Positions 7,330 to 23,000 of a stretch of DNA of 32,784 nt are shown in pieces. The DNA is taken from NCBI GenBank assembly GCA_020850355.1, contig JADZEX010000079.1:1-32784 (forward strand), written 5' to 3'. A program made the position numbers and the translations under genes. Below the pieces are notes generated by a model that saw nothing but the letters and a program-made list of their open reading frames with translations, ran no database searches and was not told the DNA's origin. Source of the stretch: Fimbriimonadaceae bacterium. GTDB lineage: Bacteria; Armatimonadota; UBA10988. Numbering within the stretch: position 1 is the first letter of the stretch; every line of letters begins with the position of its first letter.

Positions 7330-8265
7330 ATGCGGATGGAGACGCCAGGTCCGGCGGATGGGGATGAGGACGCCGCGCTATTGCAGCAGTTCGAGAAGCT
7401 GCTGGCCAGCGTGGCCAAGGAGGTTGGCACACGGTCGGTCCAGCCCCACACCGCCGAGTTGCGGGAGGCGCTGGACGGCGCTCAGAAGGCCGTCGGCGAG
7501 CAGACCAAGGAGTTCCAGCGGGCGGCGAGCGTGGCAACGCAGCGGGTCCAAGGGCTCCGGGACGAGCTCACCACGCTGCTCAGCGGTTACCGTGACAAAC
7601 TGACCAAGCTGCTGGAGGACCAGCGCGCGGCGGTAACTGGCGCGCTGGAAGGGGCCCTGCAGCAGGCACGGCGGCGGGAGGCCGCGGCGGCTGAGGTCAG
7701 CCGCGGGATCGAGCACCAGTTGCAGGCGGCGGCCGCCGCCTCGCACGAGGAGTTCGGCCGAACCGCGGACCAGCTCCAGGCGCACTTGGAGCGCTACGCC
7801 GACCAGGTGCTGGGCGCGGTGGCGGCCGAGTCAGCCGCGGTCGAGCGCCTGCAGACGCTCCACGCCAGCATCGACAGCCACACCGCCACACTCCAGTCCC
7901 TCGGCCAGGAACTGGTCCGCACGGCTGAGCCCCTCCAGGCGTTGCCCGCGGCGGTGACCCGCAGTTCCGATCAGTTGACCGCTCGCCTGGCGGAGTTCGA
8001 CCGCCAGATCCAGCGCCACCTCGGCCAGGTCGACGAGCGCCTGGCTGGCTTGGACCAACAGGTGGCGCGCCTGGCCGCTGACCAGCGGTCCCTGTCGCAG
8101 CATTTGAATGGGGCTCTCCATGATCTGCGGCAGGACCAGACCCGGCAGGCCTCGGCCAGCGAAGGTCGGCTGGCAGCCATCGAGACACGGCTGGCGGAGA
8201 TGCTAGAGTTTCTGCAGCGGCCGAAAGGTCTGGCGGCCTGGTTCGGTCGGACTGACGGCCAATGA
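7330..8265 (+). CDS. Coiled-coil protein of the dynamin-like module
   Basis: About 311 residues, almost entirely helical. Heptad-like patterns and many Q/A/E/R residues run from about residue 15 to 295, with no signal peptide or membrane span. The tail KGLAAWFGRTDGQ is a short amphipathic or aromatic patch. Segments such as ADQLQAHLERYADQVLGAV and ARLAEFDRQIQRHLGQVDER resemble long structural coiled coils. Of the starts at 7264, 7321, 7330 and 7336, I prefer the ATG at 7330 because GGGAGG (7315-7320) is nine bases upstream. Its stop overlaps the start of the first GTPase (ATGA at 8262-8265), so translation is coupled. A role as tether or regulator of the GTPases is inferred from context. I see nothing compelling in the upstream gap 7166-7329. 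Confidence 0.65.
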   Translation: MRMETPGPADGDEDAALLQQFEKLLASVAKEVGTRSVQPHTAELREALDGAQKAVGEQTKEFQRAASVATQRVQGLRDELTTLLSGYRDKLTKLLEDQRAAVTGALEGALQQARRREAAAAEVSRGIEHQLQAAAAASHEEFGRTADQLQAHLERYADQVLGAVAAESAAVERLQTLHASIDSHTATLQSLGQELVRTAEPLQALPAAVTRSSDQLTARLAEFDRQIQRHLGQVDERLAGLDQQVARLAADQRSLSQHLNGALHDLRQDQTRQASASEGRLAAIETRLAEMLEFLQRPKGLAAWFGRTDGQ

Positions 8266-10298
8266 ACGCCCCCGACGGCAGCGCGGCGCAGGCCGTGCGG
8301 CTCTGGCGGCAACTGCTGCCGGCCCGCCGGCGGGAGCAGTTTCGGCGCTTGCGCGAGGGCGCGCAGCAGGCGATCGACCTGTTGCAGCCGCCGTGCGCTG
8401 CCCAGCCGCGGCAGGCCCTGCACGACCTCTTGCCGGCCCTGCACGCCGACTACTACGTGATGGCGCTGGGGCTGTTCAGCGCTGGCAAGAGCACCCTGCT
8501 CAACGCCCTGCTGCACCGGCCGCTGTTGCCCGCCAAGCACGAGCGCTGCACTCGTCGGCTGACCCGCCTGCAGTACGGCAGCACTCCGCGAGCGACACTG
8601 TTCAACCCTGCCACGGGCCAACGTCAAGAGTGCCCCCTTGAGCAGATCGCAGAGTTCAACGCGCAGTTGGCGGACCACGAGGCCACGGGCACCGCTCGGT
8701 CGACCCTCGAGATCGCGTTGCCGCTGCCGCTGCTGGCCGACCTGACTCTGCTCGACACCCCGGGCTTCGACGATGCAGGCCGGCTGGATGACGAGCACAG
8801 CCGGCATCTGTTGGCCCAGGCCGACTGCGTGCTCTGGCTGATACCCGGCGACCGCGTCGGCAAGCAGGCCGATGTCGAGCTGCTCAGCCTGGCCCCGGCC
8901 GAGGCGCGGCGGCTGGGGGTCCTGACGAAGTGGGACCTGGTGCAGGCGCCGATCCCCGGCGATTCGCCCGAGCCGGAGCGGCAGAAGGCGCTCGCCGAGG
9001 CGCGCCGCACCTTCCCGCAGGTCCAAGGTTGGTTCTGCGTCGACAGCATGGCGGCGCTGCGGGCCCTCGCGAGTGCGACCCCGGACGGTGACAGCGGTGT
9101 GCCGACGCTCGAGGCGGAGCTGCGGCAGTCGGCGCGCGACGGCCTGCGCCACAAAGCAGCGCAGCGGCGGCAGCAAATCACTCACCAGATCCGCCTGGCG
9201 CAGCAGCACCTGAGCGACCGCCGCGAGCGTCTCCAGGCCATCGCCGACCGGCATCAGGAGATGGTTGAGGGCCTGTTCGCGGGCGCGCTTCAGGCGCTCT
9301 GCGAGGCAATCCAGACGATCAGCCGCGCCCATGACAGTCAGGTCGAGGCGTTCGGCCGGGCCTTGCTGCAAGCAGGCCCGAGGCTGCTGCCGACGCGTGC
9401 CGCACCAGGGTTCGAGGAACGCCTGCACGACGCGGTGCCGACCGACTGCTACCAACCTCGGGCCTCCTGGTTGACCAACGCCTGGCGCCAGCTTGAGAGC
9501 CGGCTGACAACCCAGGCCAGTAAGCTCCTGGGTTACCGCGTGACGGCCAAGCCCTGGCCGCGTCCGGACCACTGCGACACCCTCCTTTGGTTGTGCCTGG
9601 GCGCTGATATCAAGAGTGTCCGGGAGTTTGCCACAGTGGCAGACAGCGCACTGGCGGGCTGCGGCGGGAACGCGAGCGCCGACCTCTCGACGGCCGCACT
9701 GGCCGCGTTCACCGCCGCCGATGCGGCCGCCGTGGCGGCAGTGGCCACACTGACCGGCGTCGACCTGGACCTGGACGACGACAGCGCCGATGATGATGAC
9801 AAGCAAGGGTCGTCAATCATCGCGCTGGCTCGGAGGCTCGGCGACTTGGCGGTCCCAGATATCCGAGCGATCGACTGGCAGGACCTGGCGGACGGAGTGG
9901 GGTTCGAGTGGACCGGTGGTCTGGTCTGGCTGCAGGACTTGACCAACAGCGCCTCAGGCATGTACCGAGACGGCATCTACCGGCCGCTCCGTGAGAATGC
10001 AGAGCGTGAGTTCGCGATGCGAGAGGTTGCGGCGTACCGTTGGCTGGTGCCGGCCACCGGCCGTCTCTTGCGTACCGTCTACGAGGAGGTCGGGGCCGAC
10101 TTCAGGCGACAGACCAGTGAACACTTGGACCGGCCGGCAGTGCTGGCCGAGGTGGCGGCTCTGGCCAACCTGTCAGAGCAGTTGGCCGCGACACAGCGTC
10201 ATATGGGCCGGCCACTGAGTCAGGCCAGCCTGATAAGCCAGGCTGCGCAGCGCCGGGCGCGAGCCGCCGAAGGAGTTGACGATGGCATCCGACGATAG
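8262..10298 (+). CDS. Dynamin-like large GTPase A
   Basis: A 678-residue protein with an N-terminal GTPase domain after a helical lead. G1 is GLFSAGKSTLLNALL at residues 70-84, G3 is LLDTPGFDDAG around 165, and G4 is LTKWDLV around 222. The RPLLPAKHERCTRRL stretch after G1 is where the switch-I threonine of dynamin-like proteins lies (PxxxxxxT). After residue 300 the chain is long and helical, as in the stalk of bacterial dynamin-like proteins. It includes a weakly hydrophobic alanine-rich segment (about 480-505) followed by an acidic run with eleven aspartates in about 18 residues. Such proteins bind and bend membranes on GTP hydrolysis. It overlaps the coiled-coil gene by 4 bases and GTPase B by 17 bases. 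The acidic insert is unusual and could be a regulatory linker. Confidence 0.85.
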   Translation: MNAPDGSAAQAVRLWRQLLPARRREQFRRLREGAQQAIDLLQPPCAAQPRQALHDLLPALHADYYVMALGLFSAGKSTLLNALLHRPLLPAKHERCTRRLTRLQYGSTPRATLFNPATGQRQECPLEQIAEFNAQLADHEATGTARSTLEIALPLPLLADLTLLDTPGFDDAGRLDDEHSRHLLAQADCVLWLIPGDRVGKQADVELLSLAPAEARRLGVLTKWDLVQAPIPGDSPEPERQKALAEARRTFPQVQGWFCVDSMAALRALASATPDGDSGVPTLEAELRQSARDGLRHKAAQRRQQITHQIRLAQQHLSDRRERLQAIADRHQEMVEGLFAGALQALCEAIQTISRAHDSQVEAFGRALLQAGPRLLPTRAAPGFEERLHDAVPTDCYQPRASWLTNAWRQLESRLTTQASKLLGYRVTAKPWPRPDHCDTLLWLCLGADIKSVREFATVADSALAGCGGNASADLSTAALAAFTAADAAAVAAVATLTGVDLDLDDDSADDDDKQGSSIIALARRLGDLAVPDIRAIDWQDLADGVGFEWTGGLVWLQDLTNSASGMYRDGIYRPLRENAEREFAMREVAAYRWLVPATGRLLRTVYEEVGADFRRQTSEHLDRPAVLAEVAALANLSEQLAATQRHMGRPLSQASLISQAAQRRARAAEGVDDGIRR

Positions 10299-12840
10299 GG
10301 TCACGCTGGCGGCCGGCGAGCTGTTTGCGCTGGCGGGAGAGCTCGCCGAGTTGCCGCCAGCGCCGCCGCCTGCGCTAATGACGCCCTTGGCGCAGAACCA
10401 ACGCGTGCTCGGTGAACTGGCCGCCGGGCCACAGCAAATCCTGTTGCTGGTGATGGGAGAGTTCAGCACGGGCAAGTCGACGCTGATCAACGCCCTGTTG
10501 GGCCGGGTCGTGGCGCCAATGTCGGCGACCATCGAGACCGGGCATCTCAGCCACTTCCATTACGGCTCACCCGAACGCGCCGTGGTCCACCTCCGGTCGG
10601 GCCGCGAACGGGAGATGGCACTCGAGTCCGTCGAGAGCCTGCTGCGCGCCGGCAATCCCGAGTCGCAGGCCCTGCTCGCGCAGATCGAGTGGGTTGACTA
10701 CTACCTGGACCTGGACCTGCTGCGGGACATCGCCCTGGTCGATACCCCCGGCTTGGGCTCGGTGCAGGCGCACCACGAGCAACTCACCGGGCGCTACCTG
10801 GACACGGCGCAGGCCGTGCTGTGGGTGTTCGACAGTGGGCAGGCCGGCACCGGCACCGAGTCCGCGTACCTGGAGACGCTCGGGAGCCATCGCTGCGTGA
10901 TCGGCGTTATCAACAAGGCCGACCGGGTCGATGAGTTCGACCGCCCCGGAGTCGGCCAGCACATCCGCGAGTTGGCGCACGGCACGCTCCGCGAGGTTGT
11001 TTGGGTCTCAGCCCGGCAGGCCCTGGGTTGTGCCCTCGACCAGCAGCCGTGGTCGGCCGAGAGCGGCCTGCCGCGACTCTGGGAGGTCGTCGTCGAGCAC
11101 GTCGTACAGCGCCAGGGCCTGATCGCCGAGGTCTCCCGCGACGGGATGCTTCGGGACGCCACCTGCCGGCTGTACGACCACGTCAGCCGGCGGCAGCGCG
11201 ACCTTGTGCGGCGGCTTGACGGGGCCGAGCGGGTGCGCCAGGTGCTCGACCAACGGAGCCGTGATGTGGCCCTGAAGGCCGAGACCAAACTGCTCGAGCT
11301 GACCAGGGCCTTGCACGAATCACTCAGTAGCGAGTGGGACGAATGTTGCCGTCGCCGCGGCAACGACCTCGACGGCCTCGGGCAGGACGCGGCGCAACTC
11401 TGCGCGCCCCAGCGCCGAAACGACCTGAATCGAGACCTGCAGGCCACGGCACAACGGCTGTTCGACGACGAGTGGACAACTCTGACTGCGCAGTGGGATT
11501 TGGCGGACCGGGCGCCGGGTGCGGCGCCATTCGTGCCACTTGACGGCGTGGCGCCGCCCGATTCGGGCGACGCGGTGAGCGACGGCTTGGTTGGCGCCGG
11601 CTTCGGTCTGGCGGCTGGGGCCGTGATCGCGGCCGCATCGGCGGCGATCACGGTGGCGATCCTGCCATATGCCGCGGTGATCGGGGCCGTCGCCACCCTC
11701 GGCAACATGGTCAAACGAAACCGCCAGCACGGAGCGGCCGCCGCCGAGGTACGGCGGCGAGTCCAGGACGGTCTGGATAGGGAAAGGCAGGAACTCGACC
11801 AGTACGTCCGGCAGCACTTGCTGCCCTCGATTGAGGTACAAGGTCGCTTGGTCGCCGACCAGTTAGGTTCCGAGCAGACACAGCAACTGCTGGGCGGATT
11901 CCCCATCGAGCGCCTCCAGCAGAGCGCTGCCCGCTGCCAGGAGATCGAAACGGTCGTCCGCCGTGTCGCACGTCAGATGCAGGTGGATCTACGGGGCGTC
12001 GTCCACTCCGACGAGGGGGCCAGCGAGCCCGACGCCGACCATGACCCGGCGCGGCGGGTCGAGTTGCCGCCGGGGCCGGCCCCTGCCAGTCCGCCCCCGG
12101 CGGGGCCACCACCGACCATCCTGAGCGACACCGTGCTGGTCCGCCGCGCTCCCGGGCGCCCAGCCCCGGACCAGGCCGCGCCGCCGCCTGACGGAGGTGG
12201 CGAGGGACAGGCGGCCGAGGCGCTGCTCGCGGAGGAGCCACCGGCCCCCGAACTGCAGGTGGTGGAGGCTGCACCGTCCGAGGCCCCGACCGCGGCCGCA
12301 GCGCAGCCGCCGGCCGACGCTCCATCACGGGAGGCGGAGCGGGTGGCCAAGGAACAGCAGGATGCTGCGGAGCTTCGTCGCATCAAAGAAAAGCTAGGAG
12401 CTGAGCAGGAGGCCCGTCGGAAGGCGGAGTCCGAGCGGGATCAGGCACAGCGCCAGCAGGCGCTGGACCACGCGCAGGCCGCGCAGGCCGCCGCGGCCGG
12501 CGCGCCGGTCCCGGTCAGCGACGCTCGCGCCCTCCGACTCCGGTGGGAGCGACTCTACCGGAGCACCACGGTCACCGACGCCGCATGGCGCCGCATCAAG
12601 AAGCTGCCAACGGCGCGGCGGGACGAGCTCGAAAGGCTGGTGGGAAGCCTGCAGCATTCTGATCGGCCGAAGAGCCGCGACAAGGTCGTGGGCACGGCCG
12701 ACGTCTATGAGTTCGGATTCGACCACGATGGCCGGGCGTATGTGCGCTTCGAAGGTGCGCGAGTGGTGCTGCTCCAGGTGGGTGCCAAGGGCACCCAGGA
12801 GCGCGACACGCAGGCCTTGCGGCGGCAGTCCCCGGGCTAG
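10282..12840 (+). CDS. Dynamin-like GTPase B with RelE-like C-terminal domain
   Basis: An 852-residue protein starting at the ATG at 10282, with AGGAG at 10271-10275. G1 is VMGEFSTGKSTLINALLG (residues about 57-74), G3 is LVDTPGLGS around 154, and G4 is INKADRVDE around 211. A helical stalk leads to a hydrophobic glycine/alanine hairpin at about 434-475, a likely membrane-inserting paddle. Next come a coiled coil (about 485-590), a proline-rich disordered linker (about 600-690) and a charged helix. The last 100 residues (RLRWERLYRSTTVTDAAW ... DVYEFGFDHDGRAYVRFEG ... VVLLQVGAKGTQERD) resemble the RelE/ParE-type toxin fold. GTPase A and B are dissimilar outside the G motifs, consistent with a heteromeric pair. 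The RelE-like assignment is from pattern recognition only. Confidence 0.8.
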   Translation: MASDDRVTLAAGELFALAGELAELPPAPPPALMTPLAQNQRVLGELAAGPQQILLLVMGEFSTGKSTLINALLGRVVAPMSATIETGHLSHFHYGSPERAVVHLRSGREREMALESVESLLRAGNPESQALLAQIEWVDYYLDLDLLRDIALVDTPGLGSVQAHHEQLTGRYLDTAQAVLWVFDSGQAGTGTESAYLETLGSHRCVIGVINKADRVDEFDRPGVGQHIRELAHGTLREVVWVSARQALGCALDQQPWSAESGLPRLWEVVVEHVVQRQGLIAEVSRDGMLRDATCRLYDHVSRRQRDLVRRLDGAERVRQVLDQRSRDVALKAETKLLELTRALHESLSSEWDECCRRRGNDLDGLGQDAAQLCAPQRRNDLNRDLQATAQRLFDDEWTTLTAQWDLADRAPGAAPFVPLDGVAPPDSGDAVSDGLVGAGFGLAAGAVIAAASAAITVAILPYAAVIGAVATLGNMVKRNRQHGAAAAEVRRRVQDGLDRERQELDQYVRQHLLPSIEVQGRLVADQLGSEQTQQLLGGFPIERLQQSAARCQEIETVVRRVARQMQVDLRGVVHSDEGASEPDADHDPARRVELPPGPAPASPPPAGPPPTILSDTVLVRRAPGRPAPDQAAPPPDGGGEGQAAEALLAEEPPAPELQVVEAAPSEAPTAAAAQPPADAPSREAERVAKEQQDAAELRRIKEKLGAEQEARRKAESERDQAQRQQALDHAQAAQAAAAGAPVPVSDARALRLRWERLYRSTTVTDAAWRRIKKLPTARRDELERLVGSLQHSDRPKSRDKVVGTADVYEFGFDHDGRAYVRFEGARVVLLQVGAKGTQERDTQALRRQSPG

Positions 12841-12865
12841 CAGTCCGCTCCGAGCCGGCTGCTCA

Positions 12866-12882
12866 GGCCGCTAGCTGCGGCC
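12866..12882. terminator. Hairpin between convergent genes
   Basis: GGCCGC at 12866-12871 and GCGGCC at 12877-12882 form a perfect 6-bp stem with a 5-base loop. It lies between the convergent GTPase B and membrane protein genes and overlaps the latter's stop codon. There is no T tract, so a terminator role is only suggested by position. Confidence 0.3.
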
Positions 12883-13938
12883 GGTGGCCGCCTGCCGGGC
12901 CAGTTCGCCAAACGCCAGCTCCAAGCACTCGACCTGCCGCAACGCGTCGCGGGCCTCTGTGGGTGAGTAGTCGGCCGTCAGCGCGGCCAGCTCCACCAGG
13001 TGCTTCAGCTCGCAGAACAGCCGCAGCAGCTCCCCGCGACGGCTGGCCAAGACGGGCTGGGCGCGGTGCTCCTGCAGGAAGCTGGCGTAGTTCAGCAGCT
13101 TGGCAGTGTTGGTCACAAAGACCTCGTGCGGCACCTGGAGCAGAGCACGGCAGGCGCCGAGACCGGTCGCCCCGCCCAACAGGCCGCCGCCGCAGACCAG
13201 CACGGTGAAGCCGCCGGCCATGCCCAGCCCCCCGGTGGCCAGCGCTCCGCCGCCAAAGAAGGCCAGGCCCGAGGTGAAGGCAGCCGCTCCATGCCAGCCC
13301 AGCAGGTGCGTGCCGACGGCCGTCGCGAGCCCCGGCGCCGCCAGACCGGCCGTCAGCAATGCCGCGACCGTGGCCCCGGTCGTCCAGAGCGCGACCTTTC
13401 TCCAGTAGTGCGTCGCCTGCCGCGCGAAGCTGTCGGTGTCGCTCAGAATACGCTGGCCGGCGTCTCCTGGCAGCCCCACCAACTGGCTGATCTCCGTGGC
13501 GCCAGCGCGCGGGTCAACCTCCTGCGGCCGGCCTTTGGCCGCGGCGTAGAGGGGCACGTGGAGCACTTCCTGGAGCACCAGGAAGCGCGTCGCCAGCCCC
13601 TCCGGCGTGGCCGGCAGCCGCGCCTGCAGCGTCTCCAGCGTGGGCCGTTGGCCAACCCTGGGTCCCGCCGCCTGATGGGCCTCCGCGATCCACTGGTCCA
13701 GCCAGTCCCGCTTGCTCACCACCTGCGCCGAGGCCCGCCGGGCCTGGACACCTTGGCCAAAGCGCTGCGCCTTCCGCAGCAGCGAGTCAGCGTCCGGTGC
13801 ACCGGCCGCGGCGCTCGCCGCGGCGGCCTGTTCGGCGGCTTCCGTGCGCTCGATATCGCGCCCGGCGCGTTGCTCCACCAGGCCGACGAACAGCTCGTAG
13901 GCGCCACCATCCAGCGTGAACTCGCGAAGTCCTGTCAT
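12871..13938 (-). CDS. Glycine-rich membrane protein facing the dynamin-like genes
   Basis: A 355-residue protein with a helical, charged N-terminal half (residues 1-180) and two or more hydrophobic segments between about 181 and 262. The second cluster is extremely glycine-rich (GGGALATGGLGMAGG, then CGGGLLGGATG), a glycine-zipper-like hairpin seen in proteins that insert in or span membranes. A helical C-terminal tail of about 90 residues follows, with conserved-looking LLNYASFLQEHR and LFCELKHLVELAAL. There is no signal peptide. GGGAGC lies upstream of the ATG at 13938. It is convergent with GTPase B, only 30 bases away. I recall similar glycine-rich hairpin proteins next to bacterial dynamin-like GTPases, but I cannot name the family. 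A membrane anchor or pore partner is the natural guess. Confidence 0.6.
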   Translation of the reverse strand: MTGLREFTLDGGAYELFVGLVEQRAGRDIERTEAAEQAAAASAAAGAPDADSLLRKAQRFGQGVQARRASAQVVSKRDWLDQWIAEAHQAAGPRVGQRPTLETLQARLPATPEGLATRFLVLQEVLHVPLYAAAKGRPQEVDPRAGATEISQLVGLPGDAGQRILSDTDSFARQATHYWRKVALWTTGATVAALLTAGLAAPGLATAVGTHLLGWHGAAAFTSGLAFFGGGALATGGLGMAGGFTVLVCGGGLLGGATGLGACRALLQVPHEVFVTNTAKLLNYASFLQEHRAQPVLASRRGELLRLFCELKHLVELAALTADYSPTEARDALRQVECLELAFGELARQAATGRS

Positions 13939-20042: not shown

Positions 20043-23000
20043 TCAGGCAGAGAGCACGGCCTGAACCGTCTCTGTGGCGATCACCTCCGCGCCCGGCCGG
20101 ACGATGACCCGTTCGCCGGCGCGCTCCAAAGTGGCTGGCACGGGGCGGCCGTCGACCGTCAGATCGACGTGGGTCAGCGTTGGGGCGGCCGCCAGGACCA
20201 GCTCGCGCAGCCGCAGGCGGCCGTAGCGGATGTCGACCGTGGCGGTCTGGCGGTCGGTGATGGTCTGCGTGAAGAGGCCCCAACACTCGGCGCCTAGGAA
20301 GACACTGCGGTGGTCGGCCGGCTGCCAGCGCGGCAGGAAGCCCAGGCGGCCGGCGGGCCCGTCCAGAACCAGGCCCTGCGCGGCGGTCAGCAGGCTGCCA
20401 GAGCTGAGCGCCCGGGCGTAGAACTTGCCGCACTCCAGCTCGTTGTAGGGGTTGCCCCCGGGTCCCGAGTTGAGCGTCTCGCGGCGGCGACCGTCATAGC
20501 GCGAGCGTGCGGCGGACACCAGGCGGACGCCCTCGGCGACCATGCCCTCGTAGATCAGCAGCCCCGCCACGGCGTACTCGATGCCGGTCCAGACCTCGTC
20601 GGCGTAGATGATGAACGGCTCCGGTCGCCCGCCGTGGGGCCAGGTACACATCAGCAGACCGGGCTCGTCGTCCAGCACATAGCGCCGCGGGGCCTGCTTG
20701 AAGCCGTGGAAGTTGGCGCGAAAGTTGTGGGCCAGAATCTGCCGCAACGCGGCGCGCACATGGTCAGTCGGGTAGAGGTAACCGAGGTCGAGCTGGTGGG
20801 CCCACCACTGCCCCAGCAACTGGTCACTGTGGCAGCCGGTGTGGTAATCATGCGCCCCGCGGGCGTCCGGGCGTTGGATGTAATACTCGTGCTCGGCGTG
20901 CCACAGCCGCTCGTCCTGCAGGCGGCTGCCGCGCTCGCGCAGCTCGCCGTAACGCCCTGCCGCGGCGGTGTCGCCGACGGTCTGCGCCATCTGCCGACAG
21001 GCCGCCAGCGCGCTGAGGTACTGACTGCCGCAGAAGGTGTGCTGCCCGCTGGTGGCGCAGTCGTAGGTGTTCCACTGGTGGCCGGTCAGGACGCCCTCGC
21101 CGGCGGCGTCGAAGGTGGCGATCAGCCAGTCCATCGCCTTCTTGACCTGCGGCCAGAGCTGCCGCAGGAAGCTGTCGTCGGCACTGGTCTGATGCGCCCG
21201 TAGGGCGCCTTCGATCACCGCGCAGTGGCCGTCGACAAACGCGCCGTGGCGGCTGTGCTGGCGGTGCTGCGTTTCGCCGCTGTCCAGCAGATAGGTCACC
21301 AGGTCCGAGGTGCGCAGGTTGCGGTCGAGCTCGGGCCACAGCCGGGCGTGGGTCTGGGCGTAGTTCCAGACATGGGTGCAGTTCAGCGGGCAGCAACCGT
21401 AGCAGCCCTCGTACCCCGCGAAGTAGCCGGCTTCGGTCCAGAAGCAGGTCGGCCCGCGGGGGATCACCGCCTGCGAGGTGAAGGCGTCCAGCAGCGCCGC
21501 GGGCAGGTTCGACTGGTAGACCGTCTGGTGCCAGCGCTCGGTCCAGCCCCATAGTTCGGGCAGCCGGTCGAGCACGTCGCTGACCACCGCACCGGCGTCG
21601 CCGTAGCGCTGGCTGTAGAAGTTGCCACGGTGGCCGAAGCGCTCGACATTCGGGAAGTGCCAGCCGATCACGAAGGTGACCGTCTCGCTGGCGCCGGGGG
21701 CCAGCGTGAAGCTCGGCGCCAGCGCGCAGTTGTGGGTCTCGCCGGCGGGCGTTGGCCCGGCGCTGGCGCTGCCGGGCAGCGTCCCGCGGGTCAGCAGCTC
21801 AGCGGTCAGCTCGGCGGCGGCGGTCCAGCCGGCCTCGGCCGCGGCCGGCCGGTCGCAGGCCAGGGCCAGCGTGCCGTAACGGGTCGCCGCGGTCACCAGC
21901 CGCTGCCCCGCCGCCAGCGGCACGCCGCGGACGGCTCGCAGCAGCGGTTCGATCCAGGCGTCTGGCAGCGTCTCGGCGAGGCTGACGATCCAGCGCGAGC
22001 GGCCGACCGGCAGTGACAGCAGCACCGGCTCACCGCGCACGGTCGCCAGCACCTCGGCGCCGCCGCTCAACTGCAGGCCCTTGAAGGCCACCCGCCGGCT
22101 GACCGCCCAGCCCGCCGGATCGCCCAGCACAGCGCGCCCCGCAGCGGTTAGCTCGACGCTCTGCAGGCCGGCCGAGGAGACCTCTTCGACGGTCTGAAAG
22201 CGCACCGGCAGCGCCGCCGCCAGGTCGCTCAGCGGGCCTCGCAGGCGGTACAGCCGATCCGGTGGCAGGTCGGCGAAGACAATGTGATCGACGTTGAGAT
22301 GGCCCCAGGCGTCGGAGCTGCGGTCGACGATTTGCAGGCGCGCCTCTTGCCCGATCAGGTCGCCGACGTCCCACGAGGCCGGCTCCAGCCGCTCGTTGTT
22401 CCGGCCGGTGGCGGTCCGCACGACCCGGTCGCCGATCAGCAGGTTCAGGCAGGCCCGCTGCGGGTCACTACCGCCGCCGATCAGGAAGCCGATGTGGCGC
22501 CGGGCGATCTTGAAGGGCGGTGAGGTCAGCGTGCCCTGCGGCCCATCGCCGGGGCGGAAGGTGTTGACCAGCCCGCGGCCCAGGAAGCCGCTGACGGCCT
22601 GCTGCCCGGCCTCGGTGCCGCGTGACGGGCCAGGGCCGAAACCCTCGCCGGCGACCTGCCATTGGCCGTAGGTCTCGCCCTCGAAGTCCTCGAACACTTC
22701 CAGCGCGTCCCAGGCGCCCTGCTCCGCACGGATCGCCGTCAAGGCCTGCCAGAAGCCGGCGCCGGCGCTGCCGACGAGCAGGCCGCCGCCCTGCTCGGCC
22801 AGCCCGCTGGCGGCCTCGATCACGGCGCCGGCGACGCGGTCGGCGGTCAGGTCGGCCAGGCTGCCGAGCTGGCCGAGCCAGTAGACCGGCGGTCCGGCGA
22901 CCTCCGGCCCGTGCGCCTCACGGACCGTCAGCGGGCCGTCCGGCGGACGGGTCCAGTCGCGGCCGAGGTGGACCACGGTCCGCCCGGCGCCCTGCTCGAC

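Follow-up and report, generated by a model that had tools for sequence, protein, structure and literature searches.

An operon for a bacterial dynamin pair with a coiled-coil gene in front and a putative RelE-like tail on the second dynamin

The locus raises the question of which of four neighbouring genes, here called A to D, act together and to what end. Bacterial dynamin pairs are widespread and, to our knowledge, few of their triggers and partners have been established. A sequence-only reading of the window, the whole 32,784-nucleotide stretch of DNA analysed here, had joined a coiled-coil gene, two dynamin-like GTPase genes and a gene for a glycine-hairpin membrane protein into one four-gene module. 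The unit that emerges is smaller: A, B and C form one operon, a real operon of known type, and its unusual parts are the leading coil gene and the putative RelE-like tail carried by the second dynamin.

The coordinates, strands and overlaps given in that reading for all four genes proved correct against open reading frames and ribosome-binding sites (Table 1). Gene A begins at ATG 7330, with GGGAGG about 9 bases upstream. The start of B (ATG 8262) lies within the stop region of A, the two genes overlapping by 4 bases, and C begins at ATG 10282 behind GAAGGAG, overlapping B by 17 bases. Scans for terminator and promoter patterns found none, and at 72% GC such a scan says little. GC3 of A to D is 0.83-0.87, slightly below the 0.91-0.95 of their neighbours, which fits acquired or fast-changing genes. 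Flanking genes include a SufE-domain gene, a radical-SAM gene, glycoside hydrolases and other metabolic genes, and no envelope-stress gene marks the operon. ARAGORN called a tRNA-Thr (GGT) of 94 bases at 21837-21930 on the minus strand, within a 1218-aa GH116 gene of the same strand; this is probably a false call.

Table 1. Positions of the four genes and of the putative C-terminal domain of gene C in the window
Feature	Position	Strand	Description	Basis
Gene A	7330..8265	+	311-aa coiled-coil protein	ORF and ribosome-binding site
Gene B	8262..10298	+	678-aa dynamin-like GTPase	Pfam Dynamin_N, 78 bits
Gene C	10282..12840	+	852-aa dynamin-like GTPase	Pfam Dynamin_N, 77 bits
C-terminal domain of C	12577..12822	+	putative RelE/gp49-like domain, residues 766-847	Pfam gp49 and own profile
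Gene D	12871..13938	-	355-aa glycine-rich hydrophobic hairpin protein	ORF

Genes B and C adjoin on one strand, and each encodes a dynamin G domain. Their Dynamin_N scores stand against a Pfam gathering cut-off of 27, and both proteins carry the G1 (GLFSAGKS / GEFSTGKS), G3 (DTPG) and G4 (TKWD / NKAD) motifs. They are 30% identical across 163 G-domain residues (E 5e-15), and therefore the earlier statement that the two GTPases share only the G motifs understates their likeness. The pair is not the product of a recent duplication; in a tree of 62 sequences of dynamin-like proteins (DLPs) both fall on long orphan branches with no supported placement, neither being nearest to the other. Another DLP pair is encoded in the same genome (G000:C65, about 96352-99827; L195, 3353-5110 and 5107-6828), with a 4-base overlap and behind a TPR-like gene, and its two members join in the tree on long branches.

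Among known proteins the best sequence and structural matches are BDLP, Cj-DLP, IniA and mitofusin. Protein B has a G domain at about residues 63-230 and a weak Ala-rich hydrophobic stretch at 479-502, matches Cj-DLP, IniA and BDLP among PDB sequences, and shows no family match in its remaining parts. In protein C a G domain (50-275) precedes a helical neck/trunk (278-565) with a paddle at about 430-480; after a disordered Pro-rich linker (578-680) come a coil (681-739) and a putative RelE-like domain (about 766-847). A strongly hydrophobic stretch (443-461) falls inside the predicted membrane paddle, for which narrower limits are about 443-478. In an AlphaFold2 model of C, built with 49 aligned DLP sequences, pLDDT is mostly 85-98 in the G domain, the trunk is confident, and the paddle and C-terminal domain are of low confidence. 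Foldseek of this model against the PDB returned Nostoc BDLP (2j69) as the best match (E 2e-17), followed by the Campylobacter DLP pair and IniA. Thus modelled, C has the classic BDLP fold with neck/trunk and membrane paddle; the corresponding part of B shows a weak hydrophobic stretch only.

Conservation of the set was sought in several collections. Close orthologues of B, C and D were not found in 61 to 291 genomes of the phylum, nor those of A to D in plasmids. A degenerate scan of genome contigs yielded none for C, and phages gave one weak match. The genes are missing from the same-family genomes examined; because the comparison genome G001 has only the 949-aa gene in common with the locus, an insertion boundary cannot be drawn. 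In a wide sample of 73 DLP loci, 47 were solo and 26 paired (10 tight tandems and 16 with DLPs near each other). The sequence-only reading held that the module would be an accident of this genome if homologues of the GTPases were routinely found alone with unrelated neighbours, and on this the outcome is mixed: the solo loci count against the module, and in planctomycetes DLP pairs accompanied by a coil gene retain their order. The co-expression of the DLP pair, which is probably heteromeric, is well supported by the overlaps and by the general pairing of DLP genes.

The product of gene A is poor in proline and tryptophan, matches only coiled-coil profiles, and is soluble, with neither a hydrophobic stretch nor a transmembrane (TM) segment. 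The gene occupies the position taken by a TM-anchored coil gene in other planctomycete DLP operons. The complete order coil, DLP, DLP was found in four planctomycete genomes (L078, L187, L188 and L190), and two further cases are partial, L186 having no second DLP adjoining and L189 being cut at the contig end. The coil proteins of these operons possess a C-terminal TM segment and a common ELFREFQAYVRSVY-type motif, with which A aligns by eye as EDAALLQQFEKLLASV. The coil profile does not match A significantly (E 0.73), and A was rejected as a homologue of the TM-anchored coils, the likeness being one of coil composition only. Profiles of the DLPs in these operons match B and C chiefly across the G domain, with no detectable homology beyond it; by hhalign, C (P0003) matches the second-position DLP family at E 2e-20 over 262 columns and the first-position family at 5e-12. 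The planctomycete family thus has the gene order of A-C; homology of its coil, or of its DLPs over their full length, to the proteins encoded here was not detected. The common order could be due to deep divergence or to convergence. Its recurrence in a second DLP family supports the earlier suggestion of an upstream coiled-coil partner, and the product of A probably serves the two DLPs as a scaffold or adaptor.

Other arrangements were met among the DLP neighbourhoods. An accessory family of about 280 aa with the motif GLPDLDLxxGIGNHRxVFSHS lies beside DLP genes in L078, L186, L187 and L192 in varied orientation, and its L078 copy has no Pfam match. In L186 a gene that by eye is NERD-domain-like (1-808) takes the place of the second DLP after the coil and first DLP. 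Genes that by eye are protein-kinase-like stand upstream of DLP pairs in the same strand run in L188 (4749-6128) and L192 (669-2009). Gut Clostridia/Oscillospiraceae (L115, L119, L140, L143, L158, L162, L169 and similar) have a recurring trio of DLP, a protein of about 326 aa, and DLP. DLP genes are also found beside Hsp70 or Hsp70-like genes (L067, L194 and, on a Rhodococcus plasmid, L093); no Hsp70 gene is present at the A-C locus.

Unlike the earlier reading, in which it was missed, the present analysis points to a RelE/HigB (gp49)-like domain at the end of C, on a weak profile match. When the last 108 residues were scanned alone, Pfam gp49 matched with E 4e-4 and 20.7 bits, under the curated cut-off of 23.9. 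A RelE/HigB (gp49) profile of our own, for which RelE/gp49 sequences were taken from the phylum, gave the tail 15.9 bits, against at most 10.0 among 2000 shuffles. Searching 201 genomes of the phylum with the tail returned three foreign matches: a RelE toxin of 98 aa, preceded by a Phd-like gene and confirmed as RelE through plasmid relatives; a 92-aa RelE-like protein; and a match in an unrelated 620-aa enzyme, which was dismissed as chance. The end of the tail, VVLLQVGAKGTQERD, aligns with LIVLLVGGDKSSQERD of L215, an end of the VLLxxGxKxxQxRD type. The order helix-helix-strand-strand-strand, as would be expected of a BECR fold, appears in both models, with a mean pLDDT of about 50 or lower; folded alone, the tail has pLDDT 49, and Foldseek of this fragment gave no meaningful match. 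No relatives of the tail were found in plasmids, and none of the 174 other bacterial DLPs collected has a convincing RelE-like tail. A RelE-type fold is, in our own estimate, quite likely.

An active toxin is another matter. The conserved arginines of E[LM]R and YR in the central strands are Gly and Tyr in the tail, as read by eye from the alignment, and because these two arginines are replaced the tail is probably inactive as a toxin. Nuclease activity we estimate to be improbable. No antitoxin-type small ORF was found adjoining C. Most likely the tail represents a toxin fold taken over for binding or assembly. The domain combination would be unusual even if the tail were no more than an inactive binding module; in a recent survey of multidomain RelE/ParE toxins no GTPase is mentioned (PMC11980606). 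If true, a dynamin whose tail has a toxin fold would tie membrane remodelling to toxin-antitoxin evolution.

Taken together, we favour with moderate confidence the explanation that A-B-C encodes, as one operon, a heterotypic pair of bacterial dynamins and a coiled-coil partner, which probably serve as a membrane tethering, repair or fusion machine. Translational coupling would keep the stoichiometry of the three products. B and C would form a hetero-oligomer, as Cj-DLP1/2 do, in which C would put its paddle into the inner membrane and B, with its weak paddle, would be mainly the partner GTPase. The coil of A may bridge or recruit the complex, and the tail of C may contribute binding or assembly, in a position comparable to that of the DnaJ-like tail beside Nostoc BDLP1. 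GTP-driven assembly would then tether or fuse membrane patches and seal envelope damage, including that of phage lysis, like DynA of Bacillus subtilis, which delays phage lysis through action on the membrane (PMC8844932). This mechanism, in which the pair tethers or repairs membranes with a coil as scaffold, is considered the most likely because DLP pairs are the rule, DynA acts on the membrane, and the label of Eleos, a defence system discussed below, is not earned.

Defence is a serious rival, unlikely on balance. A-B-C would then be devoted to defence against phage, as a system of Eleos/Leo type in which infection or membrane damage is sensed by the DLP pair and the block is delivered by the tail or the coil. 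B and C match the PADLOC LeoBC/LeoA profiles (31 and 65 bits), which we take to be those of the Eleos defence system. Because every DLP tested matches the same profiles, among them ten others, paired and solo, at 25-92 bits, the matches carry no membership signal; the NCBIfam LeoA model reaches 20.5 bits here against a cut-off of 325, and Eleos membership was rejected. The slightly lower GC3 and the absence from same-family genomes would suit genes that were acquired or change fast, the gp49 family includes abortive-infection toxins (PMC11980606), and DLPs protect B. subtilis against phage (PMC8844932). Against this, the 32.8-kb contig holds no defence gene apart from a generic radical-SAM match, the two conserved arginines of the tail are replaced, and no antitoxin-like gene adjoins. 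A link to phage resistance is possible, by analogy.

The inclusion of D, with its product serving the DLP pair as a receptor in the membrane, is less likely again. D was correctly described as a glycine-hairpin protein converging on the GTPase genes: two hydrophobic stretches (about residues 182-209 and 231-262, core GGGALATGGLGMAGG) are present, the stops of C and D are 30 bases apart, and its GC3 of 0.87 resembles that of A-C. Some other DLP operons also carry an accessory gene in varied orientation, the family of about 280 aa described above (D078), but D has no similarity to it and was rejected as its homologue. D belongs instead to a minus-strand run, lying 72 bases after a DUF2200 gene, itself 19 bases behind a PhnB-like gene, and because it follows these two genes it is not shown to be part of the A-C unit. 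Profile searches matched D to no protein family, and viral contigs held no close orthologue. The one clear hairpin relative in 291 genomes of the phylum (L065) is on a 3.1-kb contig with no known DLP context, and none of the other DLP neighbourhoods retrieved contains the D motif. The four-gene module is in this respect unsupported, and D is left out of the A-C module as a separate gene.

A further reading, very improbable in our judgement, makes the tail a toxin-derived RelE-type effector of the second dynamin, freed or positioned by GTP-driven assembly on a damaged or phage-attacked membrane and leading to translation arrest or an abortive response. Least likely of all is that A, B and C are merely adjacent and act independently, their pairing an accident of this genome: many DLPs are solo and, with close orthologues of B and C not found, the linkage of the exact set cannot be traced, but there are two overlaps with good ribosome-binding sites, DLP genes are generally paired, and the coil-DLP-DLP order recurs.

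The preferred reading, a co-expressed dynamin pair with a coil partner, can be set beside several known systems. DO-GTPase conflict systems (PMC7159879) were not adopted, since they are described as a different TRAFAC family with GAP1. LeoA/LeoBC of E. coli are tandem unlike DLPs, as here, and their PADLOC profiles match B and C, whereas no defence context is present at A-C. The gp49/HigB branch (PF05973) of the RelE/ParE superfamily has its helix/strand order and the type of its end in common with the putative tail of C, which differs in being fused to a DLP, in its Arg to Gly/Tyr replacements, in the lack of an antitoxin gene and in a score below the family cut-off. For DLP tails there is a precedent in Nostoc punctiforme, where BDLP1 (2j68/2j69), the best structural match of C, has a neighbour, B2IZD2, with an extra C-terminal DnaJ-like domain (PMC6104087); the tail of C is RelE/gp49-like and follows a linker and a coil. 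The planctomycete coil-DLP-DLP operons, complete or partial, are of the same phylum and resemble A-C in the order and approximate sizes of their genes and in junctions that are tight or overlap, and differ in their TM-anchored coil with its own motif, in having no RelE-like tail and in a different accessory gene. That two unlike planctomycete DLP families each place a coil gene in front of the pair suggests a third subunit common to both. In Campylobacter jejuni, Cj-DLP1 and Cj-DLP2 (PDB 5owv, 5oxf) are the products of unlike DLP genes that lie next to each other within a single operon, as here, and their chains match B and C by sequence and C also by fold. That pair has no RelE-like tail and no coiled-coil gene described, and its heterotetramer has been solved, whereas here such an assembly is inferred. 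Most bacterial DLPs occur as side-by-side pairs, and heterotypic pairing is likely needed for function (PMC6104087; PMC4159319). Because adjacent DLP genes are thus the known norm, the pair in A-C is no new kind of system.
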